Source: a virus
Length of the DNA stretch: 22,053 nt
IMG/VR virus record: IMGVR_UViG_3300027553_000006
Span: 1 to 22,053 of that record
Strand: one strand, 5' to 3'
The position numbers were made by a program, and so were the translations under genes. The notes below the pieces were generated by a model that worked only from the letters and a program-made list of their open reading frames with translations, had not been told where the DNA came from and ran no database searches. Shown here in pieces: positions 1,866 to 22,053 of the stretch. Position 1 is the first letter of the stretch. Every line of letters begins with the position of its first letter.

Positions 1866-2663
1866 CTATTGTTGTATTAATATTGGGGGCGTAAGCTGCT
1901 CCTCCCACCAATCGAATGTTATTGGGGTGTTACTGTCTCCTTGCCGAACGTAAGGATTAGTAATCTTGTCATAAGGAAGATTTGGATTTAACAGCGTCTC
2001 GGTACGTTCAGTTTTAGTTGCCGCCCAACTATCAGGGTCCCAAGTCTTTTCTTCACCCCACCTCTTTTGTTGTCTTTCGTACCAAGCAGCATCTCTCCGT
2101 CCTTTACTTCCGTATAATTCAGGTAGTGCTGCTACTTGAGTGCCTAAGGATGTCACGCCTGCTAATCCTTGCTGCATAGCTTGCTGACTAGCTTCTTGTG
2201 CATCTCTTGCTGCTAGCTGTGCTCCTTGAGCCTCAGCTAAATCAAGTGAAGCCTTTTGTCCTGCTAACCTAGCTTCTTCCTGTGCTGTAATTTCTTCTAG
2301 CCTCTGCATTTGCTGAGACATGTCTGCTCGTGTAGCTGCGGCTGCTTTCTCCTGAGCCATCTGAATCCTACCAACTCCTGCAGCAGCACCTCTTTGGTCT
2401 GCCTCTCGGACTGCCTCGACACCCATAGCACCTTGAACCAACGCCTGCTCTCTAGCCAACTCAAAAGGCTCTTTAGCAATTGATAATCCTTCATAGTAGT
2501 TTACATCTAGCTTGGCTCTAGCCTCATCCATAGCTTTCACAGCAGCAGCTTCCGCTTCCTTTTGCTGTCTTCTCTGCTTTCCTGCTTGTATAAATGAACC
2601 TGCGGTAGATGCTGCTGTTGATGCTAAACTAACTCCTGTTGCTATTGCTGCGAATATAGACAT
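1866..2663 (-). CDS. Internal virion protein, Ala/Gln-rich with N-terminal hydrophobic segment (T7 gp14-like architecture)
   Basis: The first 27 residues (MSIFAAIATGVSLASTAAST and on) form a small-residue hydrophobic helix. A basic patch (GKQRRQQ) follows, then about 150 residues of Ala/Gln/Glu-rich coiled coil, and a Trp-rich, more polar C-terminus (WYERQQKRWGEEKTW). This layout is seen in podovirus ejection proteins such as T7 gp14, which insert in the host envelope during DNA entry. The similarity is architectural, not a sequence match. The gene sits between a structural protein and the 589-aa putative cargo protein, with its stop directly abutting the next ATG. A TAnnTTTG box lies 14 bases upstream of the ATG, so it may start its own transcript. 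No catalytic motif seen. Confidence 0.7.
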   Translation of the reverse strand: MSIFAAIATGVSLASTAASTAGSFIQAGKQRRQQKEAEAAAVKAMDEARAKLDVNYYEGLSIAKEPFELAREQALVQGAMGVEAVREADQRGAAAGVGRIQMAQEKAAAATRADMSQQMQRLEEITAQEEARLAGQKASLDLAEAQGAQLAARDAQEASQQAMQQGLAGVTSLGTQVAALPELYGSKGRRDAAWYERQQKRWGEEKTWDPDSWAATKTERTETLLNPNLPYDKITNPYVRQGDSNTPITFDWWEEQLTPPILIQQ

Positions 2664-2676
2664 AGTTGTTTTTATT

Positions 2677-2684
2677 CAAAGATA
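2677..2684 (-). promoter_or_regulatory. Candidate Bacteroidota -7 promoter box (TATCTTTG)
   Basis: The minus strand reads TATCTTTG, a full match to the Bacteroidota sigma-factor -7 consensus TAnnTTTG, inside the 27-base gap ahead of the 265-aa gene. It lies 13 bases before the ATG, leaving room for a leader of under ten bases. I see no convincing -33 TTG at the usual spacing, so this is a candidate only. The identical octamer occurs ahead of the gene starting at 10720. Confidence 0.4.
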
Positions 2685-2690
2685 CTAATT

Positions 2691-3479
2691 TTACGGATAG
2701 CTTTTCATAATCTCTGACTCTACAGCAAATAACTCTGTGGCAGTAGTGTCAGTGTTCTCCACCTCAAACAGACAGTAGTGTCCTAAAACACCATGCGACT
2801 CAGCAATTGAGTTCTTTATGTAGAAGCAGTAAGGGTCTGAGATTAGTGGTACTGTACCTAATGTAGCATCCACAACAACCTGATTCACAGAGCCCGGCAA
2901 GTCTACATTGATAGCTGTAACCGTACCTAGCAACACAGGCGTGTCGTAAGTTGGTGGTAATGAATAATAGAAAACATCACCAACACTAAGTATACTGCCA
3001 ATTGATACCAATGGAGATATGGAGAAGTCTACTACGGTTGCTGCTACAGGGCCTGATATAGCTGTACTCTTACCTATACCATTTAAGGAACGTAACGCAA
3101 GCTGCTCTGATGCAACATCTGAGTTTCTTACAAAAGCAAACCATGAGGCTTCCTTCTTCTCAAACCAATCTGCCTCTATAAATCCTGAGGTCTGTATATC
3201 TGTCTGCATGGTAGCACTCCACGCAGTATCAGACTCTAAGTTGAGCGTCTTGAATAATTTATTCTGCAATGGTATATCGTTGAATACGCTTGTCAGTTTA
3301 GATGTATACTGAACACCATAGTAGTTGTTCCTAACTGCGTTTGTATTGTGACGATAAATATTTCCACCATTAAATGTGTAAAAGTAATTGTTCATTCCAA
3401 TCATCCAATCAGGGACGTATGAGTAGAATGAGGGCCAACCTTCAACCCCTGCGCTGTATGTTAATGTATATTCTGCCAT
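2691..3479 (-). CDS. Virion structural protein, 262 aa (conserved-looking in flavophage structural modules)
   Basis: The protein is rich in aromatic residues and beta-type sequence. Its N-terminal half contains the stretches GWPSFYSYVPDWMIGMNNYF, VFNDIPLQNKLFKTLNLESD and GFIEADWFEKKEASWFAFVR, a pattern I associate with neck or tail proteins encoded just after the stabilisation protein in marine Bacteroidota phages. The C-terminal half looks like a small beta domain (ISPLVSIGSILSVGDVFYYS). There are no membrane segments, coiled coil or enzyme motifs. It begins nine bases after the stop of the 310-aa gene and clearly belongs to the same transcription unit. A role in the tail stub or neck is likely from position; the precise location in the virion is not known to me. 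Confidence 0.65.
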   Translation of the reverse strand: MAEYTLTYSAGVEGWPSFYSYVPDWMIGMNNYFYTFNGGNIYRHNTNAVRNNYYGVQYTSKLTSVFNDIPLQNKLFKTLNLESDTAWSATMQTDIQTSGFIEADWFEKKEASWFAFVRNSDVASEQLALRSLNGIGKSTAISGPVAATVVDFSISPLVSIGSILSVGDVFYYSLPPTYDTPVLLGTVTAINVDLPGSVNQVVVDATLGTVPLISDPYCFYIKNSIAESHGVLGHYCLFEVENTDTTATELFAVESEIMKSYP

Positions 3480-3488
3480 AACTTTATT

Positions 3489-4421
3489 TTACGGGATGCA
3501 AGCTTGAAAGTCTACAACCACTCCGTTTGCTACCTCTATCCAATTACTACCTGTTATCTCAATCCATTGTACGCCTGTCACAGGGAACTGACCGTTAGGG
3601 TCTGTGAATATCCAATCATATAATGCAGGAGCTCCCGGCAAACCTGCCCCTACAGGAGCGTTGTAAAAAGTTTCAGGTAGCAAGCCTGTACATTCACCTG
3701 CTCCCGGTGGTCCCGGACCACGAAGCCCACCTGAGAAAGGGGTTAGTGCTACAGGACAAGCCACATCTACAGTGAACTGAGATGTTGCACATGGGCTAAT
3801 TAGCGTTAAGTCTAAGTTAGATGGAGTAGGATTTATCTTTGGTATTACCATAACACAACCCAATGGGTCTCCTGCTGATAAAGATTCTTGACCTGAATCT
3901 ATATCTCCCGACATGTTTCCATCAGGACCAACAAAGGCAGGAGTCGAACAATCACTGTAATCATACTTGTATGAGTCTATAATACCTGTTACGGGCAGTG
4001 GAGTTATACAGGATGGAGCGTTGGAGCCTAGGTAAGTTATCTTAGTCCCTGTCGCAGAGTGATATCCATCGAGAGGAGAGCTCAACTCATTATACCGAAC
4101 TCCATCGTACTCAGCTCTTATACCACAGGGGACGACTCCGGGGCTGAACGTAACAATGACTGCTCCTGTTCCTGTGCCTAATCCCACACCAAGACTATAT
4201 CCTCCTTGTTGAATAGGGGACGTTATATTTATAGGGCATGGGCATACGCAGCCATCACATTTTGAAGCAGGGAGTAATGTGCAGTTTAACTGCTCCCTGA
4301 CAACATCACCATCACTATAGAAACCATTAGGAGCGCAGAACCGTAAATTAACATCAGTATACACTCCTGTAGCTGTTGCTAGTGTTGGGCCATTTATATA
4401 ATAACTTCCTAAGTTTGCCAT
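3489..4421 (-). CDS. Cys-rich virion structural protein, 310 aa, with short collagen-like patch
   Basis: The N-terminus (MANLGSYYINGPTLATATGV, then YTDVNLRF and APNGFYSDGD) resembles a repeated type of structural domain in marine flavophages. Cysteines cluster at residues 29, 47, 55, 58, 60 and 62, including C-x2-C-x-C-x-C, with more Cys scattered later and a final ACIP. Around residues 236-242 is a short Gly-Pro run (GPGPPGAG), and near the end the phrase QWIEITGSNWIEVANG repeats WIE. It lies ten bases after the large stabilisation protein, which also ends in a Cys-rich domain, so the two may contact one another in the neck or tail. No enzyme motif. Role inferred from position; gene call strong. 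Confidence 0.65.
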   Translation of the reverse strand: MANLGSYYINGPTLATATGVYTDVNLRFCAPNGFYSDGDVVREQLNCTLLPASKCDGCVCPCPINITSPIQQGGYSLGVGLGTGTGAVIVTFSPGVVPCGIRAEYDGVRYNELSSPLDGYHSATGTKITYLGSNAPSCITPLPVTGIIDSYKYDYSDCSTPAFVGPDGNMSGDIDSGQESLSAGDPLGCVMVIPKINPTPSNLDLTLISPCATSQFTVDVACPVALTPFSGGLRGPGPPGAGECTGLLPETFYNAPVGAGLPGAPALYDWIFTDPNGQFPVTGVQWIEITGSNWIEVANGVVVDFQACIP

Positions 4422-4431
4422 TCATTTAATT

Positions 4432-7400
4432 TTAAGGACACCCACACTGTAAGAAGGTGACATCTAATCCTGTTTCTTTACTCGCTAAGTAAGGCTCAAT
4501 ACGTGAGCACACCTGAACTGCTGTGCCTGTAAGTAGTGTTGCACCAACGATAGCACCTGTAGCGCAGTCAGCATATTCGTAAGCTATTGTTGAGCCTGAT
4601 GTATTATTGACAGTATAATAACTACAAACTTCCTCGCAAGATACACAATTACAGCAAGCGTCATCTGATGATGTTGAGTAGCAAAGCTGCTTACTCACTC
4701 TCTCTCTGTAGTCCCATATTAAATATAGGTACTGACCTGTAGCAGGCACTACGAAGTCTCCTTGGAATGTAGGAGCACTACCTGTAGGGGTGATTGTGTT
4801 CGGGAAAGCTAAATCTAGTAGGGTTTCAATTTCAGCAATCGTATTACCGTACAAAGTGTTGCTTCTTAAGAATGAGAACCTATCGTTCAGAGGGTCAAAA
4901 TCGTAATCATCAAATCCAAACTTGTTAGATATCAAACTCATGGTTGCAGAATCAGCAGGAATTACACCTGCTCCTTGCAGACCTGTAGTTGTGCTATACT
5001 CTGATATTAATACGTTGTCTGTTCCTGAAGCAAGTGTCACCTGACTAGAATGTATCGGTGAGACAAATACTCCGTCAGTCCATCTGTATTCATTGTGAAT
5101 GAACTCTCCTCCATTTGAGTCGCTAGATACACAAACCTCAACTATAGTTATCTCTTCAGCGTCAGGACAGTTAGTAGTGATTCCTATGGTGTTTGTTCCT
5201 GAAGGATACAGGGCTTCAACTAATATAGATACTTCCGTTGTTCCGACAAGGCTCTTAGCAACGGTAAGTGTCCCTGATACGTTAACAACTCCTGTGTCAA
5301 CACTTCCTCCGTTATAGGTAGCTGTAATCCTATAATCAACACCTCCTGTTATTACGTAGTCAATGTCAACATCTCCAACTAAGAATCCCAAATATACACA
5401 GTAGGTTTCTGTCTCGGCAGCATCCAATGTAACGCTTCTTGTAATTCCACAGTTATCACATGGAATCTCTATAGGAAGAGCGATATCATTAGATGATAGC
5501 ACATACTCATTCATGTATGGGTCAAAGGCTCCTAGCTTCTGCGTAGCAAATGACTCATTAAATAAATCTCTAAACCAAGAACGCATCCCTGCTTGTGAGA
5601 TTGGTGTTAGTTGCTCATTCTGACCTTGTCCTCTAAGCTGTAGTACGGCTCCCCTTTTTGAGTCAGTAAAGAACTTATCGTATCCCCAAGATACATAGCT
5701 CTCAGGATTATAGCTTATACCGAACTCTTCAGTTCTAGCTATCTGCTTTCCAAGAACCTCAGGTACAGAGGTTATGGCTCCACCACCTGCAGCGTCAGAC
5801 AATAGATTCTTTCCTGACAACACGTAAGATATCTTATCCTCCTGAAGAACTAATACATCTGTTTCTCTTCCATCCATCTTCTGAATAGGACCGAAAGATT
5901 CTTCTAGTGGACTAAAGTTTAGTAAGCCAAGATTAAATTCGTTCAGCTTGTTAACATTTGACTCGTCATTATATACGCCACTATAAGTGATGTCAGCAAA
6001 TCTATCAGCCTCTTTAAAATCCTGAGCCGATGTAGTTAGTGTTCTATTTCCAAGGTCTATAGTCTTCCCTGTTATTGAGTCTCGAACCTTATAGCTCTCA
6101 GCTCCGTTACCAAAAGCGTAGCAGTTGAAAAATGATGTGTCGATAATTGCAGGCAAGGTTGACGTTTGGTCCTGAACATTTCCACTATGCAACCCTGACG
6201 AGTCAATTGAATAAGAACTATCAGCCTCGTAAAATACATCAGGCAAGGTGTCTTGTGGCTCTGTTTCGAATATTAATACTTCCTGAATCTTTTCAAGCCT
6301 AATACCAAAGGATAACCTAACATCACAATCAATAGAGCTGCAAGCCTTAGACGACATGACCTGAAGAAACAGCTCGTTTGTTACAGAGTCTCTTTGCCAT
6401 TGAATGTACATTTTACCTTCTTGAGCACTAACAACTCCACTAGGAAAAACGGGAGCACAAGTCGGACCATCAACGCCAACTGCTCCTGTAACAGGCAAAC
6501 ACTCTATAAGTTCGACGGTACTGCTAGAAATAGAAGATTGAGCGTCATTTATTAGTTGAGTAATATTATTGCCGTCCCACCAATCCTGAATGCTTGAGTA
6601 GCTAGTTATGGTTCTAAACTCCTCAGTATACGCAAGTTGTCTATTAGACCCTATTTCTCCCCTTGTAACATTTTCAAGGGTTAGTGTTATTTTTGAATCT
6701 AAAGGAACAGTGATATCGCTACACACAGCTCCTACGCAACCACTCATTGAAACACGAAACACAGTAGCGTTAGGGATTGCTCCTGTAGGTCGCAAACTAC
6801 TAACCTTACTTGCAGAAAATAAATTACCACTCGTTCTAGTGGTGTTAAAGTCGTTAGCTCTTATCTTGATGTATACTCCTGCCGGGGATAATGTTCCTGC
6901 TACACCTACTGCTAATGACTTTTTCTCTAACACCGTAGTGTATATACAATTAGGCATAGGCCCTGATGAGTCTGCTTTAACTGCAAACCTATCTCCTTCT
7001 TCAGTTTTCCTTGCGTTTTCTCCTTCTAAAAATATCCAAGTTTCATTTTCGTCATTGGTATAATAAAAGGTGCTGTATATAGTTTCGTAGGTAGCTCTGT
7101 CAGCTCTTATAACAAACTTGTATCTAGTTGCCCAAGATGGAGCTATTTGTGTAGGTGGTATTGTTATCTTAATTTGATTCTTAACTGCCGACTGCTCACA
7201 AGGGATGTGAACAGTGTTGTTGGGGCTTACTAATGTAGTGGTAGACCTATTAAAGTCATCCATATAGACAATTCCTACCTCATAGTTCCTGTTGCTATGC
7301 AGGCTTCTTGGAGCTCCAAGACTATATCCTTTAGCATTAGCACTATTTATTTTGTAATATTCATAAGCGTTACCTGTTAATGGAAGAACAGCAGAAGAGT

Positions 7401-9048
7401 CAACAAACTTCATAGCCACCAACTGAAATCCTATCTCATTAGAAGACGGACTACTTATTATAGATATAGGTTCTGACGGAGCGTTAATACCACTTTCAGT
7501 TTCTATGTAAGCACCTAGACTTCCCGGTATGATACAATTAAATGCATCTGTCCAAGTTGTTCCATCACAAGATAATGGGACTGTTGCTATGTTGTACGCA
7601 GCTCCAACAGTCTCAATAAACCTTAAATCTGTCGCTAAGTCGTATGCGCTAGAATAGTCTCGGCCTAGTTGAAATGTAAAATTAATAACCGTATTAGGTG
7701 TGCTAGAAGCGGTTGGGGTGTCACTTGTAAATCCTGCACTATCAAACTGTAAAACAAGCTCAAGAAAAGACCCTCTAACTAATGGAATACCCGTCAGGTC
7801 TACGTACACGACGGAATCAACAACAGTTTCGGGAGGAACTGATGCGTCTATGTTGTATGTTCCTGCATCTCTTCTAGTGTTTATTTCTTTGATTAAAATC
7901 TCACTAGTCACAACCTCTGCGGAATACTCAAGCTTAGTAGGGTTGTTATTAGCATCTTTTAGGTCGTACCCATCAATATAGTTTCCATACATCAATCTGT
8001 TCCCCATCATTGTTTGGGCTTGAGCAAATCTAGGTACGTTGTCATACAGCCTTAATATCTCATAGCTTGGCAGAATGGTGTATATCTTTCCGTTGTCAAA
8101 CGTAACAGAAAAGTCTGTATCATCAGCAATGCCAAGCTCCTGCTTGTCAAACTTCTCAATAACTCTTATAGTGCTGTTAGTGTCTTCTTTAAACAACACA
8201 TCAAACCCAACAACTAATGGGCCACCTGAATTAACAACTACCGATGCAGTGTTGATTGTGTTCTCCATTCCTGCATTAAGCTTCGATGTCACATCAAAAG
8301 AGAATGGTCCGGGAACAAAAGCAGCAGCACTGAATTGAGATGTAGCTGAGTACTCATTATCGGCATAGCGATACCTATACCCAAAACAAATGAATCTCTC
8401 CTCCATGAAGTTCTCTTGATTCCCTGTATTAAATGTCGTGAATGTTGGAGCTGCAATAGGTGGCTTCTTTATGACGAGCAAGGACTCTTTTAGAATCTCA
8501 GCCAACGCAACTGTTCCACCACCATCTATAAGGGTTGACGGGTTGGGATAGTTCTTGGTTACATTTATCTTTCTAGGAGCATTATAATCGTCAGTAAAAA
8601 ACAACAAGTCATCAACTAGGTCTACCCCTGTTATGAGATACGTAGGATTGAAGTTTAGTGTTGTGTTTACACCACCACCATCATCAATACTAACTACATG
8701 GTATACCAATAAAGATGTTTCGGGCTTTATGGAAACAATAAGGTCAAGCTTGCCTGTAGCTCCTAATGTAAACGCAGGGTCGTGTACGAACCAATATATA
8801 GTCTCTTCGGCTCCATCTGCTATAGCTCCAATGCATCTAGCCTCAGGGCTAAGAAGAGTGCCATCAATAAAGGATAGTGAAGAAAGCTTTGTGTTCCCTT
8901 TGGAGTTTTCTACCGAACCTATCTCAGATGCTTCTGTAGAGCCTAAGCGAACATTTAGTGCGTCTATATACTCTCCATTAGGGATTAGTCTCTCGTCAAG
9001 AGACTTGTTCATTCTACCCTTTATAAAATTCCTTTGAATATTTGCCAT
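4432..9048 (-). CDS. Large tail/neck stabilisation protein, 'muzzle'-type (P22 gp10-like role), 1538 aa
   Basis: This is the largest gene in the window. The N-terminus (NFIKGRMNKSLDERLIPNGE, then YIDALNVRLGSTEASEIGSVEN) closely resembles the opening of phage stabilisation proteins that close the neck in P22-like and crAss-like phages, where the product is called gp10 or muzzle. The length suits the muzzle type. Most of the chain is beta-rich. A CxxC pair lies near residue 1198 (PCDNCG), and the last 80 residues form a Cys-rich domain (DACCNCVSCEEVC near 1470, ending QCGCP). There is no membrane segment and no signal peptide. It starts one base after the stop of the 307-aa ring protein, the classic ring-then-stabiliser order. 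The C-terminal Cys domain is a possible docking or disulfide-linked module. Confidence 0.85.
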   Translation of the reverse strand: MANIQRNFIKGRMNKSLDERLIPNGEYIDALNVRLGSTEASEIGSVENSKGNTKLSSLSFIDGTLLSPEARCIGAIADGAEETIYWFVHDPAFTLGATGKLDLIVSIKPETSLLVYHVVSIDDGGGVNTTLNFNPTYLITGVDLVDDLLFFTDDYNAPRKINVTKNYPNPSTLIDGGGTVALAEILKESLLVIKKPPIAAPTFTTFNTGNQENFMEERFICFGYRYRYADNEYSATSQFSAAAFVPGPFSFDVTSKLNAGMENTINTASVVVNSGGPLVVGFDVLFKEDTNSTIRVIEKFDKQELGIADDTDFSVTFDNGKIYTILPSYEILRLYDNVPRFAQAQTMMGNRLMYGNYIDGYDLKDANNNPTKLEYSAEVVTSEILIKEINTRRDAGTYNIDASVPPETVVDSVVYVDLTGIPLVRGSFLELVLQFDSAGFTSDTPTASSTPNTVINFTFQLGRDYSSAYDLATDLRFIETVGAAYNIATVPLSCDGTTWTDAFNCIIPGSLGAYIETESGINAPSEPISIISSPSSNEIGFQLVAMKFVDSSAVLPLTGNAYEYYKINSANAKGYSLGAPRSLHSNRNYEVGIVYMDDFNRSTTTLVSPNNTVHIPCEQSAVKNQIKITIPPTQIAPSWATRYKFVIRADRATYETIYSTFYYTNDENETWIFLEGENARKTEEGDRFAVKADSSGPMPNCIYTTVLEKKSLAVGVAGTLSPAGVYIKIRANDFNTTRTSGNLFSASKVSSLRPTGAIPNATVFRVSMSGCVGAVCSDITVPLDSKITLTLENVTRGEIGSNRQLAYTEEFRTITSYSSIQDWWDGNNITQLINDAQSSISSSTVELIECLPVTGAVGVDGPTCAPVFPSGVVSAQEGKMYIQWQRDSVTNELFLQVMSSKACSSIDCDVRLSFGIRLEKIQEVLIFETEPQDTLPDVFYEADSSYSIDSSGLHSGNVQDQTSTLPAIIDTSFFNCYAFGNGAESYKVRDSITGKTIDLGNRTLTTSAQDFKEADRFADITYSGVYNDESNVNKLNEFNLGLLNFSPLEESFGPIQKMDGRETDVLVLQEDKISYVLSGKNLLSDAAGGGAITSVPEVLGKQIARTEEFGISYNPESYVSWGYDKFFTDSKRGAVLQLRGQGQNEQLTPISQAGMRSWFRDLFNESFATQKLGAFDPYMNEYVLSSNDIALPIEIPCDNCGITRSVTLDAAETETYCVYLGFLVGDVDIDYVITGGVDYRITATYNGGSVDTGVVNVSGTLTVAKSLVGTTEVSILVEALYPSGTNTIGITTNCPDAEEITIVEVCVSSDSNGGEFIHNEYRWTDGVFVSPIHSSQVTLASGTDNVLISEYSTTTGLQGAGVIPADSATMSLISNKFGFDDYDFDPLNDRFSFLRSNTLYGNTIAEIETLLDLAFPNTITPTGSAPTFQGDFVVPATGQYLYLIWDYRERVSKQLCYSTSSDDACCNCVSCEEVCSYYTVNNTSGSTIAYEYADCATGAIVGATLLTGTAVQVCSRIEPYLASKETGLDVTFLQCGCP

Positions 9049-9049
9049 C

Positions 9050-9973
9050 CTACTTTATCCACTTTTCTCTTCCTCGAAGATTCATTAACAAGCGGCCCGG
9101 ATGTATATTGCTAATTCTAATCTTAGCATTTCTTAACAAGGCAGACCTTTCTTTTCTTGCTCTTGATACAATGTATTCCTGAACACCAACCTTGCTGTTT
9201 AATATCGCATACCTGATGTAAGCGTAAACAAATTCCTCGAACAACTTATTAACGGTTATAAGCGTGTCGTTACCACCCTCCATACCATCTGAAACGTATT
9301 CTAATATGCACATCTCTCCTGCCATCTCAGAGCTAAAGTTAATAACTCCTGCCTGCTTATCAATCCTGAATGTCGGATTAGCGTTAGCAGTCTCAGTATT
9401 TAAACCATATCTAGCTCCTATGCCATAATCAAAATACCACTCCCCATCACAACAGTATCCTTCTAGTCCGTTGAACTGACTTCCTTTATTTAGGTAGATG
9501 CTTTTCTTTTGTCCTGTAATTCGGTCTAGGTCTATGTCAGAGAACTCAGGCTTCAATATGTTTCCGCTAGCATCAAACAGTATCCGACAATCATTATCTT
9601 GAAGATAGGCTGTGGCTGAGTTTATTTGAATATTCTCAGTAAGCGGTCTAAGAACACCATCTTTGTATAAAGATATTCTTACCCAATTAACATAGTCGTG
9701 TGGTAAAACAAACCTAAGCGTATCACAAACCGAAAGCTCTAAAGCTTTAATCTCTTTGAAAGCATCGTAGTTAAGTTCTTGTATAGCTCTCTTGGCATGG
9801 AACAACACCTTGTATCTCTCCTCGTTATTGACTAAAGAGTGGTTGCCTGCATACATAAGCATGAAGTTGTTCACTATATCTTTTAGGCTAACATACTGAT
9901 AAGAACCCCAATTAGCATCCTCAGGTGCAACCCCACCATTTTCGTAATATTGATATGCACTTAAATATGCCAT
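9050..9973 (-). CDS. Head-tail connector/ring protein, 307 aa (P22 gp4-like role)
   Basis: Residues about 28-85 are helical (LKDIVNNFMLMYAGNHSL, YKVLFHAKRAIQELNYDAFK) and lead into a beta segment (LRFVLPHDYVNWVRISLYKD). This arrangement is typical of the ring proteins that extend the portal channel in crAss-like and P22-like phages. The central region carries a Cys-Cys motif (GYCCDGEWYFDYG), and the C-terminus returns to helix and ends basic (ARKERSALLRNAKIRISNIH). It directly follows another putative ring protein and precedes the stabilisation protein with a one-base gap, so it most likely sits between portal and muzzle. Which ring it forms cannot be told from sequence alone. Confidence 0.75.
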   Translation of the reverse strand: MAYLSAYQYYENGGVAPEDANWGSYQYVSLKDIVNNFMLMYAGNHSLVNNEERYKVLFHAKRAIQELNYDAFKEIKALELSVCDTLRFVLPHDYVNWVRISLYKDGVLRPLTENIQINSATAYLQDNDCRILFDASGNILKPEFSDIDLDRITGQKKSIYLNKGSQFNGLEGYCCDGEWYFDYGIGARYGLNTETANANPTFRIDKQAGVINFSSEMAGEMCILEYVSDGMEGGNDTLITVNKLFEEFVYAYIRYAILNSKVGVQEYIVSRARKERSALLRNAKIRISNIHPGRLLMNLRGREKWIK

Positions 9974-9976
9974 ATA

Positions 9977-10720
9977 TTATTTTTCTTCTTGTGACCCTTG
10001 AGCCTCTTCTGAATTAGCAAATGAATACACATCAGACTCTCTAATGGATATCCCTGCGTACTGTAATATCTTCATAACCAAATCAACCTCATCATCTAGC
10101 GGTAATTCAAAATCCTGAAAGTCAGTAGCAGTTTGGTCGAATGACGGCTCACCATTTGTTAATGTGACATAAGTCCACTTAGGAGGATTAGGATACCTGA
10201 TGTAGTTACAGGAAACCTCAGTAGCAGCATCAAATGTTTCAGGGTACACCGTTATGGTACTACCATTTAATACGTAAGCCGGGAATGTTTCAGATGGAGC
10301 AGTAAGCATTGAGTTAAGCAGCATTGTTATCTGAGAGTTGTGAACCTTCTCAGCCTCTCCTTTAAACACTCTAGGTGGAGCACTAGCATCGTAGCATAAA
10401 ACCTTCACTATAAGATAGTAGTCGTCTCCTGTAGTTATAACAGATGGAGCACTAAACTCGTTGTCTGCAATGTGAGTTAAATCATTTGTTACTGAGAACA
10501 AATCTATAACCTCCTCGTAACCCTTCTTTATGTCAGCATAGCCCGTACCTGATTGGCGAGCATTCTCTTTCATTATCTGATAATTGTACTGATAAAAGTA
10601 GTTATCAAATATATCGAGCTGCGCCTGCTTTGCAAATAGATTGAAATCAGATGGCGACAGGTAGCCATAGTTGTTTTTATTCAATACAGAAAGTACCGTA
10701 TTTCTAACTGAGTTTATCAT
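9977..10720 (-). CDS. Head-tail connector/ring protein, about 247 aa
   Basis: The frame can be extended to a TTG at 10736-10738, but the ATG at 10718-10720 is the better start: the protein then opens MINSVRNTVLSVLNKNNYGY, and the extra six residues would be encoded inside a -7-like promoter box and the terminator T-run. An N-terminal helical domain (SPSDFNLFAKQAQLDIFDNY) is followed by a beta region with VSCNYIRYPNPPKWTYV, a phrase typical of the short ring or tail-completion proteins of this phage group, and an acidic C-terminus. It stands just downstream of an intrinsic terminator and ahead of a second ring protein, so it probably opens the neck/tail transcript. Role assigned from position plus these motifs. 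Confidence 0.7.
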   Translation of the reverse strand: MINSVRNTVLSVLNKNNYGYLSPSDFNLFAKQAQLDIFDNYFYQYNYQIMKENARQSGTGYADIKKGYEEVIDLFSVTNDLTHIADNEFSAPSVITTGDDYYLIVKVLCYDASAPPRVFKGEAEKVHNSQITMLLNSMLTAPSETFPAYVLNGSTITVYPETFDAATEVSCNYIRYPNPPKWTYVTLTNGEPSFDQTATDFQDFELPLDDEVDLVMKILQYAGISIRESDVYSFANSEEAQGSQEEK

Positions 10721-10725
10721 TAAGA

Positions 10726-10733
10726 CAAAGATA
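10726..10733 (-). promoter_or_regulatory. Candidate -7 promoter box (TATCTTTG) after the terminator
   Basis: TATCTTTG on the minus strand matches TAnnTTTG exactly and ends only five bases before the preferred ATG of the ring protein. A start at the usual distance would give a nearly leaderless message. It follows the terminator T-run directly, which makes a fresh start plausible. No -33 TTG is seen at normal spacing. Confidence 0.4.
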
Positions 10734-10736
10734 AAC

Positions 10737-10770
10737 AAAAAAAAAGAGGGGCTGAAAAATCAACCCCTCT
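10737..10770 (-). terminator. Intrinsic (rho-independent) terminator
   Basis: On the minus strand, AGAGGGG pairs with CCCCTCT (seven base pairs), with three further pairs inside after one mismatch and a four-base loop, and is followed by nine consecutive T. It lies 30 bases past the stop of the 250-aa gene and just before the ring-protein start, so it separates the capsid region from the neck/tail genes. Confidence 0.88.
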
Positions 10771-10799
10771 GCTAGATAAACAATCATGGAAAGAAAAAA

Positions 10800-11552
10800 T
10801 CAGGCTATCTCTAGCTGATTTTCGAGCATTGTTAATATCTCTAACCCGTCATCACTTTGCAGGTATGACGAAACCACGAACATGGGGTCTTCCCCAAATG
10901 GTATAGTTAGCATTCTCTTTTTGTTGGATGATAAATTGAAATACACATCCTTCTTGTTGTTTCGGAAAGATAATAGTTTATTATCAAAGAACAACTGTAC
11001 GTTGGATGATAATTTTAAATTAGGGTCCGTTAATGCATTCATGAAAGCATGAGGCTCTCTCTTAGCAAAAATAAGTATATCTCTTTTTAACTCAGCAGTT
11101 GTTGAGCGAGATGGGTCTTTACCGAATAAAACCCTAGTCATTGTCTCTAGCTGCTCAATAGATAAAGACCTAGCCTCAGACAATGCGTCAAGCTCTTTGT
11201 TCATCTCTTCTAGTTGAGCCTGAGCATCCTTCTCCTCATCAACCTCTACGAACCTAATACCATTCATAGGGTGATAATGTAAGAACTCCTGTAGGACAGG
11301 ATTATTTCTTGGAACACTTAAGAATCCATCCTCAAAAATTATAGGCTCTACAATTGCATTTCCATCCTGCTCATCTTCAAAAGGTGTCTTTTGATTTCTA
11401 GCATATCGAAGAGGTTTGTTGACACCTGTCTCTTCATCAAAATGTAGTAGTGGGAATCTCCTAGTGTTTCTAGTTGGCAGCATATAAGAAAGAGGAGCTG
11501 CGTCTCTTGTTAGCTTGTAGACCTTGTCTACGTGATTTATGTTTGATTTCAT
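10800..11552 (-). CDS. Unassigned virion-associated protein next to the capsid gene, 250 aa
   Basis: I do not recognise a named family. The N-terminal third is polar, with RFPLLHFDEETGVNKPLRYA and FLHYHPMNGIRFVEVDEE. Residues about 108-135 form a charged helix (AQAQLEEMNKELDALSEARS), followed by a helical segment (ELKRDILIFAKREPHAFMNA). The C-terminal part has beta strands (VQLFFDNKLLSFRNNKKDVY). There are no membrane segments or enzyme motifs. The gene is insulated by an intrinsic terminator on each side, directly after the major capsid gene, a placement often used for abundant capsid-accessory or head-completion proteins. Its leader shares an AAATCAAAT-type sequence with the first gene of the window. 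A decoration, auxiliary-capsid or head-tail joining role is possible but not shown. Confidence 0.6.
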   Translation of the reverse strand: MKSNINHVDKVYKLTRDAAPLSYMLPTRNTRRFPLLHFDEETGVNKPLRYARNQKTPFEDEQDGNAIVEPIIFEDGFLSVPRNNPVLQEFLHYHPMNGIRFVEVDEEKDAQAQLEEMNKELDALSEARSLSIEQLETMTRVLFGKDPSRSTTAELKRDILIFAKREPHAFMNALTDPNLKLSSNVQLFFDNKLLSFRNNKKDVYFNLSSNKKRMLTIPFGEDPMFVVSSYLQSDDGLEILTMLENQLEIA

Positions 11553-11567
11553 TTGAATTTGATTTGT

Positions 11568-11583
11568 GTCCCATAAGTGGGAC
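11568..11583. repeat. Inverted repeat GTCCCA-N4-TGGGAC upstream of the 250-aa gene
   Basis: Perfect six-base arms with a four-base spacer lie between the capsid-gene terminator and the ATG of the 250-aa gene, 15 bases before that ATG. A longer version of the same palindrome occurs at 18663-18680 within the large terminase gene. It could be an operator or a small RNA hairpin near the start site. The second copy is what makes it worth recording. Confidence 0.5.
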
Positions 11584-11587
11584 GATT

Positions 11588-11617
11588 AAATAAAAGGAGC
11601 CTACTTCCGCAGGCTCC
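11588..11617 (-). terminator. Intrinsic terminator after the major capsid gene
   Basis: The minus strand reads GGAGCCT, an eight-base loop, then AGGCTCC and TTTTATTTAAT. The stem is seven base pairs and can be lengthened by A-U and G-U pairs into the T tract. It lies 18 bases after the capsid stop codon. Such a terminator is common after capsid genes and helps shape a high-level capsid message. Confidence 0.88.
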
Positions 11618-11634
11618 CTTCATAAACTTATTGA

Positions 11635-13065
11635 TTACTCTTGGAATAAGAAGAAGTTGTTCGCACCCATAGTACAAACACATCTCTCAGACAAAAAGTG
11701 AACCTCCATTGCATCGAGGTCGCTGTTAGCAGCACCACCTGCTGAACCTGTAATCCAAGTCTTGTATCGTCGGTCTTCAGTTTCTGAAGCTCTGTAACGT
11801 ACATGCAAGAATGGTCGCTTTGCGTTTTTACCTAACACTTGGTCATACACAGTTGTAGAACCTGCAGGAACCATTAGACCGTTTACACGACCTGAACCTG
11901 CACCTGTTGGTAAACCACCTCTCATAGTTGGGTCATTCAGGTATTTCCAATCCGTCTTGTAGAAGTCGTAACCTCTTCGGAATCCTGTGAATCCAAGGTT
12001 AAGAGCCATCTCCTCATCGTTATCGAAAAGACCGTATGAAGTACCACCTGCACCGTAAGAGTTTTGAGCAGCTAACATGTCGTCGATATCAAATCCAAAG
12101 TTTCTATCCAAGAAAATTACATTCTCTTCAATAGCTCCTTGGTTATCAAGTCGGCTAATGATAGCGTCAAAATCAGCTAATGCATTTGGGTTTCCACCGC
12201 CCCATACGTTACCTCTGTTTCCTACAACATAGAAGATTCCTTCTGAACCTGCTGTACCTGCTGTACCTGCTACACCTAACTCAGCAATTGCGCCTGAATT
12301 TAATTCCGCAGGAACTGCTTCAATCATTGCAGTCTCTAGGTAGTCATCAAATCGAAGACGAGTCTCGTGCTCTGACTTCAAATACCAAAGGTATCCTGTC
12401 GCACCATTCTCAGTAGTTACTTCAATCCAACCAATCTGAGCCATATCAGAACCACTTACTGCGTACTTATCTTTTATGATAATTGGCTTATTATCAAAGA
12501 TTTCATCATCAGCTTCCAAAGAACCTTGCATTCCTGCAGTTCCTTTTTTGAACTCAGAACCATAAATGAAGATAGTACATACTGCTGCGGCTGCAAAAGC
12601 TTGACCTGCTCCTTCGTAGTAAGCAACATCTATTGTGCCTGCTACTGTATCAACAGCAGTAACAACTGCTTTGTTTTGTCCTCCACCTGCATTCTCAGTA
12701 ACAACGATAGTTTGACCTACTCGGATAGCTATGCTACCTGTTCCCGGTACTAACGCATCGTTAATAGTAATAGTGGCATTGTCTGATGCTACTGCATCTC
12801 CTGAAGTACAATCTACATACTTTGTGTGTAGTCTTCCTTGCTCTGCCCATTTTACCATGTCAGAGTTGGAAGGCATTTCAGCACCAACCATTCTTAAGAA
12901 TGAAGATACTGTTCGGTTACCATATCTTTCAAATTCCTTCTCGTATGTATCAGGAAGATACTGATTAAGGAAATCAAAATTGGTAATATAATTTGTTGAC
13001 AACGGTACTTGTTCAGCACTTGGCTGAAGATTAAAGCCCGGTGTCGGGTTAACTTGTCCCGGCAT
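11635..13065 (-). CDS. Major capsid protein, HK97-type expected, 476 aa
   Basis: The N-terminal segment (FLNQYLPDTYEKEFERYGNR, then TVSSFLRMVGAEMPSNSDMVKWAEQGRLH) matches the opening I know from major capsid proteins of Bacteroidota podoviruses, and the length suits the roughly 490-aa crAss-like capsid proteins. Residues about 85-170 are a Thr/Val/Gly-rich beta segment that looks like an inserted surface domain. Residues 264-274 hold a small Ala-Gly-Thr repeat. There is no obvious N-terminal cleavage site, and the neighbouring acidic protein may act as a separate scaffold. The gene lies after portal and scaffold-like genes, begins behind a pure A/T leader and ends in a strong terminator, as expected for the most abundant virion protein. 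Confidence 0.88.
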   Translation of the reverse strand: MPGQVNPTPGFNLQPSAEQVPLSTNYITNFDFLNQYLPDTYEKEFERYGNRTVSSFLRMVGAEMPSNSDMVKWAEQGRLHTKYVDCTSGDAVASDNATITINDALVPGTGSIAIRVGQTIVVTENAGGGQNKAVVTAVDTVAGTIDVAYYEGAGQAFAAAAVCTIFIYGSEFKKGTAGMQGSLEADDEIFDNKPIIIKDKYAVSGSDMAQIGWIEVTTENGATGYLWYLKSEHETRLRFDDYLETAMIEAVPAELNSGAIAELGVAGTAGTAGSEGIFYVVGNRGNVWGGGNPNALADFDAIISRLDNQGAIEENVIFLDRNFGFDIDDMLAAQNSYGAGGTSYGLFDNDEEMALNLGFTGFRRGYDFYKTDWKYLNDPTMRGGLPTGAGSGRVNGLMVPAGSTTVYDQVLGKNAKRPFLHVRYRASETEDRRYKTWITGSAGGAANSDLDAMEVHFLSERCVCTMGANNFFLFQE

Positions 13066-13084
13066 TTTTTTATTTTTTTAATAT
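13066..13084 (-). promoter_or_regulatory. A-tract translation leader of the capsid gene
   Basis: The 19 bases before the capsid ATG contain only A and T on the minus strand, with seven A, one T and six A leading straight into ATG. There is no Shine-Dalgarno sequence. Bacteroidota messages typically rely on A-rich, unstructured leaders of this kind for efficient initiation, so this probably supports high capsid output. Confidence 0.5.
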
Positions 13085-14170
13085 TTAACTTCTGTTTCTT
13101 TTACTGCGAATCTTTAACCCTCGACCTGAGTCTTGTGTTACTGCCCTCACAGTGGTCCCCCCTTTAGAAGTTGCTTCAGGTGCTCTGCGCTCAGTCATAT
13201 TGACATTTTTTGTTTTACGCATCACATCCTCCGTAGCTTCCGATTTGCCTTGCTCATAAAAGAACTTAGCAAACTTGTCAGGGTTCATTGCAATTGCTAA
13301 AGACCTATGATAGCCTGTAGCGTCATTAAGCATTCCGTTCTCATCCAAATATTTCCCTATGAAATTCATTGGAGTCTCTTGTGCTTTCTTCAACTCAGAC
13401 GCATCTCCCGGACTAAACGTGTAACTGCTTTCACCAATCTCGAACTCAAAACCTTTGAACTCCTTACTAAAAACCTCGTCACTTTTTTTAGAAAACCATT
13501 CAGCTTTCCTGTCGTTTAATTCCTTTGCGGATTTAGAATTACTCATATATTGTTTATAAGCCTCGAACTCCTTGGTATCCTCTTCAGACATCTGACTCCC
13601 ACTTGACTCAAGGGGCTCCTTGTACATCTGCTTCTGCTCCTCGAAATATTTCTTAGCCTTAGCAATAACTTTTTTCTTCTCTACCTTTATCTTTCTAATG
13701 TCAGCCTCATCATCTAGCTCTTCGTCATAAGAGTAATCATCCATCAAGGATTCAATATCTTCTGCGTCTAAGCCTTCCTCTGTAGCCAACAGATATTCTT
13801 TAAGTAGAGTATCAGGGTTTGCTTTACTGAAGTCTCTGTTTAATTTAACATAGTCTTCAATACCTCTCCCTGTTTTCTTTTTGTATTCAAAATAAGCAGC
13901 AACATCTTCAGGCAACTCTTCCGAAGCTTCTCGCTCAGTAAGTAGTTCCTCTACAGAGTTAATCTGCTTATCATACCTATTCTTAATATATGAAAGAACT
14001 TCCTCCTCTTTTAACTCAGGAGGTGAGTCTTCTTCTTGAGGAGTTACAACCTCTACAGGTTCAGGCTCCTCGTTTGTAATTTCTTTTTCGTGCTTCTCAA
14101 GAAGTTCCTTCTCTACTTCCTGTACCGACTTCTCCTCTACAGCACTTACTTCTTTTACTTTAATTCCCAT
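13085..14170 (-). CDS. Putative scaffolding/capsid assembly protein, 361 aa, acidic
   Basis: The protein is strongly acidic and Lys/Glu-rich. Its first 60 residues are almost unstructured in character (EEKSVQEVEKELLEKHEKEI, NEEPEPVEVVTPQEED), followed by long helical stretches (residues about 150-220), including KIKVEKKKVIAKAKKYFEEQ. The last 30 residues turn basic (GRGLKIRSKRNRS). An acidic helical body with a basic C-terminal tail is the usual build of phage scaffolding proteins, whose tail contacts the capsid protein. Its place between portal and capsid genes is also the normal scaffold position. I see no protease motif. Sequence-level family membership was not established. A TAnnTTTG box lies 17 bases before the ATG. 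Confidence 0.65.
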   Translation of the reverse strand: MGIKVKEVSAVEEKSVQEVEKELLEKHEKEITNEEPEPVEVVTPQEEDSPPELKEEEVLSYIKNRYDKQINSVEELLTEREASEELPEDVAAYFEYKKKTGRGIEDYVKLNRDFSKANPDTLLKEYLLATEEGLDAEDIESLMDDYSYDEELDDEADIRKIKVEKKKVIAKAKKYFEEQKQMYKEPLESSGSQMSEEDTKEFEAYKQYMSNSKSAKELNDRKAEWFSKKSDEVFSKEFKGFEFEIGESSYTFSPGDASELKKAQETPMNFIGKYLDENGMLNDATGYHRSLAIAMNPDKFAKFFYEQGKSEATEDVMRKTKNVNMTERRAPEATSKGGTTVRAVTQDSGRGLKIRSKRNRS

Positions 14171-14186
14171 TAGATTTAATTTAATA

Positions 14187-14194
14187 CAAAGTTA
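14187..14194 (-). promoter_or_regulatory. Candidate -7 promoter box (TAACTTTG)
   Basis: In the 42-base gap between the portal and the scaffold-like gene, the minus strand reads TAACTTTG, a match to TAnnTTTG, 16 bases before the ATG. That would allow a leader of about 10-12 bases. The start would drive the scaffold and capsid genes as a unit ending at the terminator after the capsid gene. No clear -33 TTG is visible. Confidence 0.4.
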
Positions 14195-14212
14195 CATAAA
14201 AAATAAAGACCC

Positions 14213-16645
14213 TTATCTAGGCGAAAACTCTGCTAAGTCAAAACCATCTAAGCTGTCTTCGTTTGATTCAAATCTTTGTGGTGGAAGATTATTCTTCCTT
14301 TGATTAATAAGTTTAGATTGCTCGCTATTCTGCTGACTAATTCTATCAGCCTTAGCGTCCTCTCTCGACTGCTCCCTGTTGGATAAGTTTTGTGCTTGCA
14401 TACCTGATAGCTGCATGTTATAATCAAACTCTACCTGCATTAACTCACGCTTGAGCTGAGCCTCACCCTTAAGCTTCTCAAGCTCAAATGCTATCTCTGC
14501 CTGCTTGACCTGTATCTTGGATTGAGTCTCCATCTCTATCTTCTGAGCTGCTACTTGAGCTGCTATCTGTTGCGACTGCATCTGCTGCTGTGCTTGAGCT
14601 TGTTGCTGTTGCATCTGCATCTTTTCTTCTCTCTCTTGCTTTTTGACTCTTTTTAATTTCAACAATTGATTGGCAAGCTTTAAGTTTCTGAGCTCCCTAA
14701 TATCAATAGCGTCCTCAAGATTGATGTCCTGCTTGGATAACGCCATCTGAATGTTCTGCTCTAGCTGTGCCTTCTGCTCTTCATCAGGAGAGACCTCTAT
14801 GAATATACCAAAGTCATAAATGTACAGGTCAGATATCTCGTTAAGTATACTCACGTTATACTTGCCTATCTTGTTGATAAAGCTATCCTTAAAGTCTGAG
14901 TACTCTAATATGTCTGCTACCCTGTACGATAGAGCCTCGGATAATGTTCTATAAATATAAAGACTACCATCTAGTATATGCCTAGTAGCTGTGTTGGAGT
15001 TTAATGCAGCTAGCTTCTGCACACCAACTAATGAGTTAGGGTCAGGTGTTGAAGCGTCTCTAGGTCCTAATCCTGTCACAGACCTAATCATGTCTAGGTA
15101 GTGATTATAATTTGCAATCAGCATCTGAGTTTTAGCTGCCCCGGAATTAGATGTTAACTCTTGTATTGGGACACGACCTTGATTGTAATCACCATCCTGT
15201 GTGTAGCTACGACCAATGACGCTACCTGTTTGAAAGTAAAGTCTCAATGCGTCCTCAGGATTGTAAGCACTCCCTGTCCCTAAGTCAACCTCATTTAAAC
15301 CATCTGCATCAATAAACACACCATCAGGTACAACACGAGATATTACCTGCTGTAATTTGTAGTGTGTCATGTTGATTAAATCAGCAAATGGAATCATTCT
15401 TCTTGTCAATGACTCGATAGCTCCCTTGTACATTCGTGGAGCAACAGCAACATAATTTGGAATTGCATGCTGATTAGCTGACTTAGGCCGAACCATATTC
15501 TCTGCAAGCTCCCATTTCAAAACAATATTCGTTCCCATAACCATAACGCCTTCATACCAAACGTCTATAGTCTTTTCTATCTTCTCAAAATTTCCCTCCT
15601 CCATCATCTCTGTGGGTGGATTGAATTGGTCATCCTTCTCTATTACTCGACTACCTCCCCCTTCAAGAACTTTCTTCTTGTACACAAACTTCTTTGTGGT
15701 CTTGTAGTTAAAGTACATTAAGGTGCAAGTATCCCTGTAGAATATATCGTTCTGATAGTATTGAGCCACATTGAAGTAATCATACCAAGACTGACTATAC
15801 TTTGATATCTTCTCCATATCCTCATTAGTCAGCGTAGGGTCTATCTTCTTTGTCTCAGTAATGGGGACAGTTTTTATTTCCCCCCAATAAAAGCAGTCTT
15901 TAAAGTGTGGGTCTTCCGTATAGCTGTAAACCACATTTGCAGGGTCTACATAAGAAACCTTAACCCCGGAGCCTAGTAAAAACTCATGCTTAGCTACACT
16001 TATACCAAGTACAGTAAGGTCATAGTCAAATCTTTTTCTTAAATCAACATAGTGATTCTCTTCTAGTATCGTATCAATAGCTTCTTCCTCAGCTATTTCT
16101 ATAGCAGGCTTGTATTTAATCTGCATATATAAAGCGAGCTCATCATCATCCTGTGGTAGTTCTTCAGGAGACATAACAAACGCATCAAACCCTGAACGCT
16201 CTTTTACTGTGGTTAATATGTCCTGAGCCGCCATCTGCCCTTCTATCATGTCTTGATACTTACTTCTCTTTCCTTGGGACAAAGAATCTTGAGCGAATGC
16301 GTTAACCTTAAACAGCCTGTCAGCCATTCCGTTAACAACGATGTCTACAAACTTTGGTATAATAGGCACAGGTGTCCAATCAAGATTAAGGTAGGATAAG
16401 TCTCCGTCAATAGCTAGTTCATTTTTGTACTTACCAATAGACTGTTCTCCACGAGCATATAGTCTTAATCTATGGAACTCTCTCCATTGGTCGTAATAAC
16501 GACAGTTGCTGCCGTCCCTCTTAAACCATTCATATTGTATTGCTTGACCTACTTGCAATCCAAATTCTACTGTAGCTTTTTCAGAATCAGAAACAAACTG
16601 ACTAGGAAAACCTGATGGATTGATATTTATATTTACTTCCTTCAT
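14213..16645 (-). CDS. Portal protein, 810 aa
   Basis: The portal forms the dodecameric ring at one head vertex through which DNA passes and on which the neck assembles. The length, the place directly after the large terminase (ATGA overlap) and the phrases VKVSYVDPANVVYSYTEDPH, RRMIPFADLINMTHYKLQQV and DMIRSVTGLGPRDASTPDPN all fit portals of crAss-like and related phages. The C-terminal part, from about residue 660, is a long Gln/Lys/Glu-rich helix (EKMQMQQQQAQAQQQMQSQQ), probably the barrel or internal crown, and the chain ends LDGFDLAEFSPR. No frameshift or truncation is visible. The start ATG is fixed by the overlap with the terminase stop. Confidence 0.9.
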   Translation of the reverse strand: MKEVNININPSGFPSQFVSDSEKATVEFGLQVGQAIQYEWFKRDGSNCRYYDQWREFHRLRLYARGEQSIGKYKNELAIDGDLSYLNLDWTPVPIIPKFVDIVVNGMADRLFKVNAFAQDSLSQGKRSKYQDMIEGQMAAQDILTTVKERSGFDAFVMSPEELPQDDDELALYMQIKYKPAIEIAEEEAIDTILEENHYVDLRKRFDYDLTVLGISVAKHEFLLGSGVKVSYVDPANVVYSYTEDPHFKDCFYWGEIKTVPITETKKIDPTLTNEDMEKISKYSQSWYDYFNVAQYYQNDIFYRDTCTLMYFNYKTTKKFVYKKKVLEGGGSRVIEKDDQFNPPTEMMEEGNFEKIEKTIDVWYEGVMVMGTNIVLKWELAENMVRPKSANQHAIPNYVAVAPRMYKGAIESLTRRMIPFADLINMTHYKLQQVISRVVPDGVFIDADGLNEVDLGTGSAYNPEDALRLYFQTGSVIGRSYTQDGDYNQGRVPIQELTSNSGAAKTQMLIANYNHYLDMIRSVTGLGPRDASTPDPNSLVGVQKLAALNSNTATRHILDGSLYIYRTLSEALSYRVADILEYSDFKDSFINKIGKYNVSILNEISDLYIYDFGIFIEVSPDEEQKAQLEQNIQMALSKQDINLEDAIDIRELRNLKLANQLLKLKRVKKQEREEKMQMQQQQAQAQQQMQSQQIAAQVAAQKIEMETQSKIQVKQAEIAFELEKLKGEAQLKRELMQVEFDYNMQLSGMQAQNLSNREQSREDAKADRISQQNSEQSKLINQRKNNLPPQRFESNEDSLDGFDLAEFSPR

Positions 16646-18876: not shown

Positions 18877-19135
18877 ATCCTTGTTGAGTATCCGTTCTTG
18901 AAATACCTTTTTCAGAAATATTAATGTTTTCTTGCTCTTGCTCTATTCTTGTTAATATTTCAAACGCATCAAATATAGCTAACTTCTTTGAGGCTGCGGC
19001 ATTCTTTAGCCTGTCTGCTGCTAACTCATCATCAATCTCAGGCTTTATTATGTCTTCTTCAGCAACCTTTATTAGCTCTTTTACTGCTTTCTCTCCGGCT
19101 TTAATTATTCTTAGTTTAATTTCTTTGTTTGTCAA
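18854..19135 (-). CDS. Small helical protein upstream of terL, candidate small terminase subunit, 93 aa
   Basis: The frame starts at a TTG that overlaps the upstream stop as TTGA; there is no ATG in the frame to use instead, so TTG is the likely start. The product is nearly all helix and Ala/Lys/Glu-rich (LAADRLKNAAASKKLAIFDA, then FEILTRIEQEQENINISEK), with a basic end (FAERRSK). It overlaps the terminase start by 23 bases. Small terminase subunits are commonly short helical proteins encoded directly upstream of terL, and this is the best candidate in the window. I do not see a clear helix-turn-helix, so the assignment rests on position, size and helical content. Confidence 0.5.
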   Translation of the reverse strand: MTNKEIKLRIIKAGEKAVKELIKVAEEDIIKPEIDDELAADRLKNAAASKKLAIFDAFEILTRIEQEQENINISEKGISRTDTQQGFAERRSK

Positions 19136-22034: not shown

Positions 22035-22053
22035 TTGATTTGATTTTACACAA
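22035..22053 (-). promoter_or_regulatory. A-rich leader of the first gene, cut by the window edge
   Basis: The minus strand reads AAAATCAAATCAA directly before the ATG, with no Shine-Dalgarno site. The leader of the 250-aa gene at 11552 has a near-identical stretch (AAATCAAATTCAA). Only 19 bases are visible, so any promoter lies outside the window. Confidence 0.35.

Follow-up and report, generated by a model that had tools for sequence, protein, structure and literature searches.

TAnnTTTG boxes inside the structural operon of an Elemovirus-like podophage: probable promoters of the Bacteroidetes primary-sigma type

Introduction

How is a long run of phage structural genes, with only short gaps between them, divided into messages? 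The question is raised by IMG/VR record IMGVR_UViG_3300027553_000006, a 22-kb virus contig whose 22,053 nucleotides (nt) make up the window analysed here. A first-pass annotation, made from the letters of the window, had pointed to three minus-strand TAnnTTTG boxes in short gaps before ATGs, and had proposed that they split the structural module into scaffold/capsid, ring/muzzle and internal-protein units, dosed separately by use of the host sigma factor. Here we argue that the boxes are probably promoters of the type recognized by the Bacteroidetes primary sigma factor (sigma-ABfr) and that they restart transcription inside the structural operon. Judged from the sequence, transcription of the structural block very probably begins at several points and gives separate messages. 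The starts are probably five, not three, as a box inside the gene of the terminase large subunit (TerL), before the portal gene, and another at the contig edge are to be added.

In the proposed mechanism, host RNA polymerase with the primary sigma factor would read TAHHTTTG as a -7 element. It would restart at the portal gene (from inside TerL), at the scaffold and major capsid protein (MCP) genes, at the ring-1, ring-2 and muzzle genes and at the gene after gene C, and probably also ahead of gene 21804-22034. The preceding messages would be closed by two hairpin terminators, one behind MCP and one behind g7, a conserved gene between MCP and ring-1. Before ring-1, terminator and promoter would form one element, the T tract doubling as the AT-rich upstream part of the promoter. 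Separate dosing of the units is plausible on such an arrangement.

The candidate promoter positions are common to Elemovirus, phi38:1 (Pervagoviridae) and phi46:3 (Pachyviridae), and one of them lies within a coding gene. The predicted set offers exact start sites, short sequences that may serve as promoters in Flavobacterium and other Bacteroidetes, and a way of asking whether these phages alter the host polymerase. The leaderless messages that are predicted touch translation initiation in a phylum without Shine-Dalgarno sites. A literature search, with most subscription papers outside its coverage, found no paper on TAnnTTTG promoters in these phages.

Placement and conservation of the boxes

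The three boxes originally described are where they were said to be. The ATGs that follow them, at 14170, 10720 and 2663, are 16, 5 and 13 nt away, respectively. The gaps that hold them measure 27, 79 and 42 nt, a total of 148 nt, just under the 150 first given. The longest open reading frame of ring-1 starts at a TTG at 10738 and would enclose the box; the start is taken as the ATG at 10720 because the proteins of relatives open with MINSVRNTVLS-like residues. The minus-strand gaps counted amount to 292 nt and contain exactly three boxes, against a mean of 0.23 after shuffling. At least three were found in 1 of 5000 shuffles, which bears out the claim that three matches exceed expectation. 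A count of boxes in gaps versus coding sequence had been proposed at the outset as a check. Taken over its full length, the window shows no enrichment of the motif (27 occurrences vs. 21 expected; 14 of 100 shuffles reached 27); relatives have a non-coding excess (see below). The signal resides in placement, not in overall frequency. A scan of 2600-22053 for sigma-70 promoters showed no excess (41 vs. 50 expected).

Conservation in relatives had been set beforehand as one test of the boxes. MCP, ring-1, gene B and scaffold served as queries for the loci whose homologous gaps were compared. Gaps are called distinct when the sequence around them differs, and cluster representatives were chosen at 80% DNA identity; related loci are still partly dependent, and several share contigs. 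In the gap counts the ring-1 start was limited to 135 nt past the g7 stop. The portal/scaffold gap has the box in 58 of 64 representatives (shuffled expectation 3.2), the g7/ring-1 gap in 61 of 64 (7.2). Behind gene C, 21 of 22 distinct loci, the window included, have it at a distance of no more than 70 nt. The controls, a reversed pattern and the opposite strand, were low. Other gaps of the same block are without it: scaffold/MCP (0/53 representatives; before MCP, 0/121 distinct), ring-1/ring-2 (0/56) and ring-2/muzzle (0/50). The MCP/g7 gap is close to expectation (4/47 representatives, 2.1 expected; 4/111 distinct). The position of the boxes upstream of genes is kept by selection, and the codons of TerL speak to the same point.

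A box in the terminase gene and one at the contig edge

TerL and portal overlap by 4 nt, and a box lies in the 3′ coding end of TerL. With cluster representatives taken at 82% identity, it is kept at the homologous position in 39 of 43, and in 30 of 33 of another representative set. The codon before the asparagine is ATT, CTT or GTT in 42 of 43; its last two bases are therefore fixed while the amino acid varies. At the asparagine position itself, 38 representatives have AAC and one has AAT; three have threonine as ACC, which keeps the box, and one has serine as AGT. The phenylalanine codon at the box is TTT in 41 of 43. Of the 1533 asparagine codons counted over all of TerL, 583 are AAC; directly before phenylalanine the share is 22 of 38. 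An unbiased scan for synonymous constraint gave z up to 9.8 at the box (5360 windows, mean 1.2, standard deviation 2.3). The constraint is on DNA bases rather than on protein, and the box is best read as the portal promoter. In phi38:1, TATCTTTG occurs in the last 110 nt before portal, also in the 3′ end of TerL, in a different sequence context.

The other testable coding boxes of the window are kept in only 0 to 42% of cases. Retention is 22 of 52 for the ring-1 coding box at 10606 and 14 of 35 for s_18854, and conserved residues may explain these. For the coding box of gene A there were no relatives to compare. The scan for synonymous constraint also showed raised synonymous conservation at 12952-12966 in MCP and 18319-18333 in TerL, which is unexplained.

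In minus-strand orientation, the first letters at the right end of the window are TTGTGTAAAATCAAATCAAATG. Homologues of gene 21804-22034 have a full box within 60 nt upstream in 11 of 13 relatives, and the contig end has probably cut off a box that precedes this gene.

Relatives and strand bias

Terminase and portal of the window match those of MW202828, a spring-water podovirus, at 76%, and of the Flavobacterium elemo phages at 46%. More distant matches are Cellulophaga and Tenacibaculum phages of Pervagoviridae and Pachyviridae (Calle_1 and phi38:1, about 35% for the portal; phi46:3 portal, 26% identical to that of the window). Both this similarity and a shared gene order place the window in an Elemovirus/Pervagoviridae-like podophage lineage.

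The non-coding boxes in whole records number 12 in MW202828 (3.2 expected), 17 in elemoA (3.4) and 14 in phi38:1 (5.8), the expectations being from base composition only, over both strands. The phi38:1 gene table, also in the strand count, is without three small annotated genes, and the elemoA sequence covered stops short of the record's end, which falls within one long gene. All three phages have a box upstream of both the scaffold-position and the ring-1-position genes. In phi46:3, 5 of 35 listed starts are preceded by one; TAACTTTG stands before three of these genes, namely the one preceding the MCP-position gene, a virion gene at the ring-1 position and one further virion gene.

The distribution over strands was examined in 20 IMG/VR relatives, mostly outside the structural loci. 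Strands were labelled early or late relative to MCP, and genes were mechanical open reading frames (annotated genes in the named records); the late-strand outside regions retain some structural sites. The structural strand has a box in 43 of 141 gaps, where 6.5 are expected, and the opposite strand in 15 of 206, where 7.1 are expected (p = 2e-8, Fisher test). An unbiased search for six-base patterns ranked TCTTTG and CTTTGT at the top on the structural strand and found no motif of similar strength on the opposite strand of the 20 relatives. In the named records the structural-strand gaps with a box are 11 of 22 (MW202828), 8 of 25 (elemoA) and 7 of 40 (phi38:1). On the opposite strand they are 2 of 25, 4 of 26 and 2 of 38 (0.5, 0.6 and 0.4 expected). 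The signal is mainly, perhaps not solely, on the structural strand, and the idea of a late module fits this concentration. The contrary reading, in which the box would have no late specificity, was given up in view of the strong bias. Opposite-strand gene gaps of the 20 relatives carry the box hardly above chance.

Terminators and leaders

Where the messages would end is suggested by hairpins. The MCP/g7 gap has a hairpin with a T tract in 103 of 111 distinct gaps. The original division of the module into units is supported, the scaffold/MCP unit being bounded downstream by this terminator; the number of starts is to be revised upward. The hairpin of the window in this gap was missed by a consensus terminator scan. 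Under a strict rule, 85 of 107 distinct g7/ring-1 gaps contain a hairpin, with a box behind it in 83 of the 85. RNAfold gave a hairpin whose end is at most 18 nt from the box in 87 of 104 such gaps, with 54 different outer arms, so the pairing is kept though the sequence changes. The GC hairpin, T tract and changed arms of intrinsic terminators are all present, the arm changes having been counted for g7/ring-1 only. Since two terminators flank g7 and 43 of 47 representatives have no box in front of it, g7 probably depends on read-through in most relatives. MW202828 and elemoA, unlike most relatives, have a box in the MCP/g7 gap. A second hairpin, GTCCCACTTATGGGAC at 11568-11583, lies in the g7 leader of the window, and a similar one is seen in L005 and L006.

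The third box had been placed before an internal-protein unit. In the window it precedes gene B, a virion protein gene. In 10 of 20 other loci with the box it precedes a gene of 134-136 amino acids, annotated in MW202828 as an acetyltransferase subunit. The window is without this gene (seen in L082, L117, L118 and others), its third box standing directly before gene B.

In Flavobacterium johnsoniae, the -7 element is 4-5 nt from the start and 87% of leaders are longer than 10 nt (PMC6847099); for Bacteroides thetaiotaomicron, about 3.7% of leaders are given as shorter than 10 nt (PMC7366714). The F. johnsoniae spacing rule was used to predict the leaders of the window (Table 1). The ring-1 message is predicted to be leaderless or to have a 1-nt leader (0-1 nt). 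Among the 21 loci with the box after gene C, 8 have exactly 5 nt between box and start and 16 have 3-8 nt, and leaderless or near-leaderless messages are therefore predicted.

The -33 element and known systems

Promoters of sigma-ABfr have a -33 TTTG and a -7 TAnnTTTG, the latter refined to TAHHTTTG in F. johnsoniae, where the -33 motif is weak (PMC6847099). The phage boxes have the identical six-base -7 core, likewise avoid G at both variable positions, and lie upstream of genes with AT-rich sequence ahead of them. These conserved promoter-like elements support the first attribution to the host primary sigma factor. They are unlike sigma-ABfr promoters in having no -33 TTG at any of the four conserved sites. 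They also prefer C as the fourth base and, at the scaffold box, have [TC]A behind it.

The absence of a -33 element had been noted from the start and holds. Host promoters were sampled from 60 stretches of 40 genomes in the class of one Bacteroidetes metagenome-assembled genome, reached via one of five loci from a query of genome contigs with phage GroEL. TTG is found at -33 in 19 of 48 low-GC and 20 of 45 higher-GC promoter-like boxes, versus 7 and 9 in a control interval. Of 304 gaps in the low-GC part, 27 show the reversed pattern and 78 the box, so about one third of the host boxes may be noise. The phage counts are 2 of 58 (scaffold), 7 of 61 (ring-1), 1 of 18 (after gene C) and 0 of 50 (TerL). 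Late-strand boxes elsewhere have TTG at -33 in 8 of 37 (control 10), and opposite-strand boxes in 6 of 14 (control 2). The absence is real against the host sample, but it concerns four homologous sites only. The phage boxes also differ from those of hosts in distance to the start, mostly 14-18 nt at scaffold and ring-1 and most commonly 5 nt after gene C, the host sample having a median of 28-30 nt.

T4 late promoters consist of the -10 element only and are read with gp55/gp33 and the sliding clamp. The phage boxes resemble them in being a single downstream element without an upstream hexamer, in preceding structural genes and in their concentration on the structural strand. They differ in that the box is the -7 element of the host itself, and some opposite-strand genes may use it. 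A phage sigma or coactivator, unlike in T4, was not identified here, none having been searched for.

In the crAss-like phages crAss001 and phi14:2, late transcription is thought to use host RNA polymerase (PMC8375218). The likeness is in the Bacteroidetes host and in a late structural module thought to be dependent on the host enzyme; the accessible part of that paper gives no promoter motif. Unlike in crAss-like phages, the terminase and portal of the window match Elemovirus, Pervagoviridae and Pachyviridae records. The window is without a gene for a crAss-like virion RNA polymerase, and a Pfam scan of the MW202828 and elemoA giant proteins, that of elemoA being incomplete, showed no polymerase domain.

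Alternative explanations

Several observations weigh against promoters of host type restarting the structural operon. The -33 element, present in 19 of 48 host boxes, is absent at the phage sites. The elemo phages have no box at the TerL position, and in Gundel_1 a box precedes just one of the 44 late-strand starts listed, which is not that of the scaffold-position gene. Of 117 distinct portal/scaffold gaps, eight are without a box, with none in the preceding 90 nt either, and the box is therefore dispensable in some phages. These gaps are short (18-38 nt vs. a median of 50 over all gaps). In the scaffold gap of L020 the box is present but its last base is changed. Several stretches of the scaffold gene, unexplained, outrank the TerL box in the synonymous scan. 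Finally, the structural-strand bias would also suit a phage-directed enzyme.

Such an enzyme is the basis of the strongest alternative, which we regard as a serious rival, though clearly the less likely account. The late boxes would form a distinct, -33-independent class (an AT tract plus TA[AT]CTTTG, often then [TC]A) for a phage-modified holoenzyme, as in T4 late transcription, the remaining genes using host-type -33/-7 promoters or something else. In a fuller version, doubtful to the same degree, a widespread group of Bacteroidetes podophages would have these dedicated structural promoters, with an AT tract and an extended -7, one joined to a terminator and one set under synonymous constraint in the terminase gene. 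They would yield leaderless or near-leaderless messages and would be favoured by a phage-modified polymerase after shut-off of host -33/-7 promoters. The -33 counts at the four sites are in its favour, as is [TC]A behind the scaffold box in 58 of 58 versus 17 of 48 in hosts, and the strand bias raised its standing slightly. Against it, the structural boxes are four homologous sites, and with an independent count of four the absence would arise by chance at 0.6^4 = 0.13. Ring-1, with its terminator hairpin, and TerL, with its coding sequence, have their own reasons to lack a -33 element. Late-strand boxes elsewhere do not differ clearly from hosts (p = 0.1, some structural sites included), and the TTG of opposite-strand boxes is on sites barely above chance in number. 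The small opposite-strand excesses in MW202828, elemoA and phi38:1 also speak against it. No phage sigma turned up, the Pfam scan having covered two giant proteins only, with no dedicated search. An altered polymerase, already entertained in the first-pass annotation, is thus possible but not needed to explain the missing -33 element, which is weak in F. johnsoniae itself. Plain use of the host sigma factor is kept as the best reading because the sites are four and homologous, local constraints act on them, and the F. johnsoniae -33 is weak.

The remaining alternatives fare worse. That the boxes are operator sites of a phage regulator overlapping weak promoters is improbable. Ahead of the gene 21804-22034 homologue in L025, L060 and L069, the box is within an inverted repeat, TTCCTATCTTTGTAGGAA (TTCCTA-TCTTTG-TAGGAA), as though a regulator bound over the promoter, but no such symmetry is visible by eye at other sites in the examples inspected. 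A translation or RNA leader element, suggested by boxes mostly within about 25 nt of a start codon, is more improbable still. The box is absent before MCP, ring-2 and muzzle; that of portal is 40 nt upstream and within coding sequence; and the spacing ranges from 3 to more than 20 nt. The core is identical to the known host -7 element, and an Rfam scan gave no family at gathering score. Chance or the base composition of AT-rich gaps, although in keeping with the unremarkable total over the window, is ruled out for practical purposes by the gap shuffles, by conservation far above shuffled expectation and by the low controls.

Gene map

The names scaffold, ring and muzzle are putative (Table 1). 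They depend on gene order and PHROGs, because searches of PDB sequences with MCP, ring-1, ring-2, portal and muzzle gave nothing useful (no match, or weak unrelated ones).

Table 1. Boxes, terminators and genes of the window
Feature	Position	Strand	Remarks
Box TAACTTTG, -7, before scaffold-position gene	14187..14194	minus	predicted mRNA start 14181-14182, leader 11-12 nt
Box TATCTTTG, -7, fused to terminator upstream	10726..10733	minus	predicted mRNA start 10720-10721
Box TATCTTTG, -7, after gene C	2677..2684	minus	predicted mRNA start 2671-2672, leader 8-9 nt
Box TAACTTTG, -7, in TerL 3′ coding end	16686..16693	minus	40 nt before portal ATG; predicted leader 35-36 nt
Leader of gene 21804-22034	22035..22053	minus	contig edge; holds only TTG, last three bases of probable box
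Intrinsic terminator AGAGGGGTTGATTTTTCAGCCCCTCT + T8, after g7	10745..10770	minus	T tract ends 3 nt before box
Hairpin GGAGCCTGCGGAAGTAGGCTCC + T-rich tail, terminator after MCP	11596..11617	minus	from the sequence; no box behind
TerL, terminase large subunit	16642..18876	minus	from annotated relatives; embedded box at 3′ end
Portal protein	14213..16645	minus	phrog_6547
Scaffold by position, between portal and MCP	13085..14170	minus	phrog_16786, function unknown
MCP by position	11635..13065	minus	phrog_13704, virion structural
g7, conserved unknown	10800..11552	minus	phrog_34748; flanked by two terminators
Ring-1-position virion protein	9977..10720	minus	phrog_14543; leads ring/muzzle unit
Ring-2-position virion protein	9050..9973	minus	phrog_13977; no box upstream
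Muzzle-position protein, 1538 amino acids	4432..9048	minus	from gene order; no box upstream
Gene C	2691..3479	minus	phrog_38031; 3′ end is anchor of third box in relatives
Gene B, virion protein behind third box	1866..2663	minus	phrog_13764

Other conserved elements

The scaffold-position gene shows extreme synonymous conservation at 13602-13612, 13985-13999 and 13446-13459. A palindrome within it, CTTGAGTCAAG, is exact in 109 of 143 distinct relatives, the window included, and has no other same-strand occurrence in the loci searched, about 1.97 Mb with some redundancy. Two further stretches, GTTCTTTCA[TC][AT]T in 110 of 143 and TTCAAAGGTTTTGA in 118 of 143 relatives, also occur nowhere else. 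Promoters do not account for this conservation; the stretches are possibly a packaging signal or some other DNA or RNA element.

In MW202828, two divergent boxes lie at 40194-40211 within an inverted repeat, TGTCACAAA...TTTGTGACA, between an annotated repressor and its neighbour. The arrangement suggests a possible autoregulated switch.

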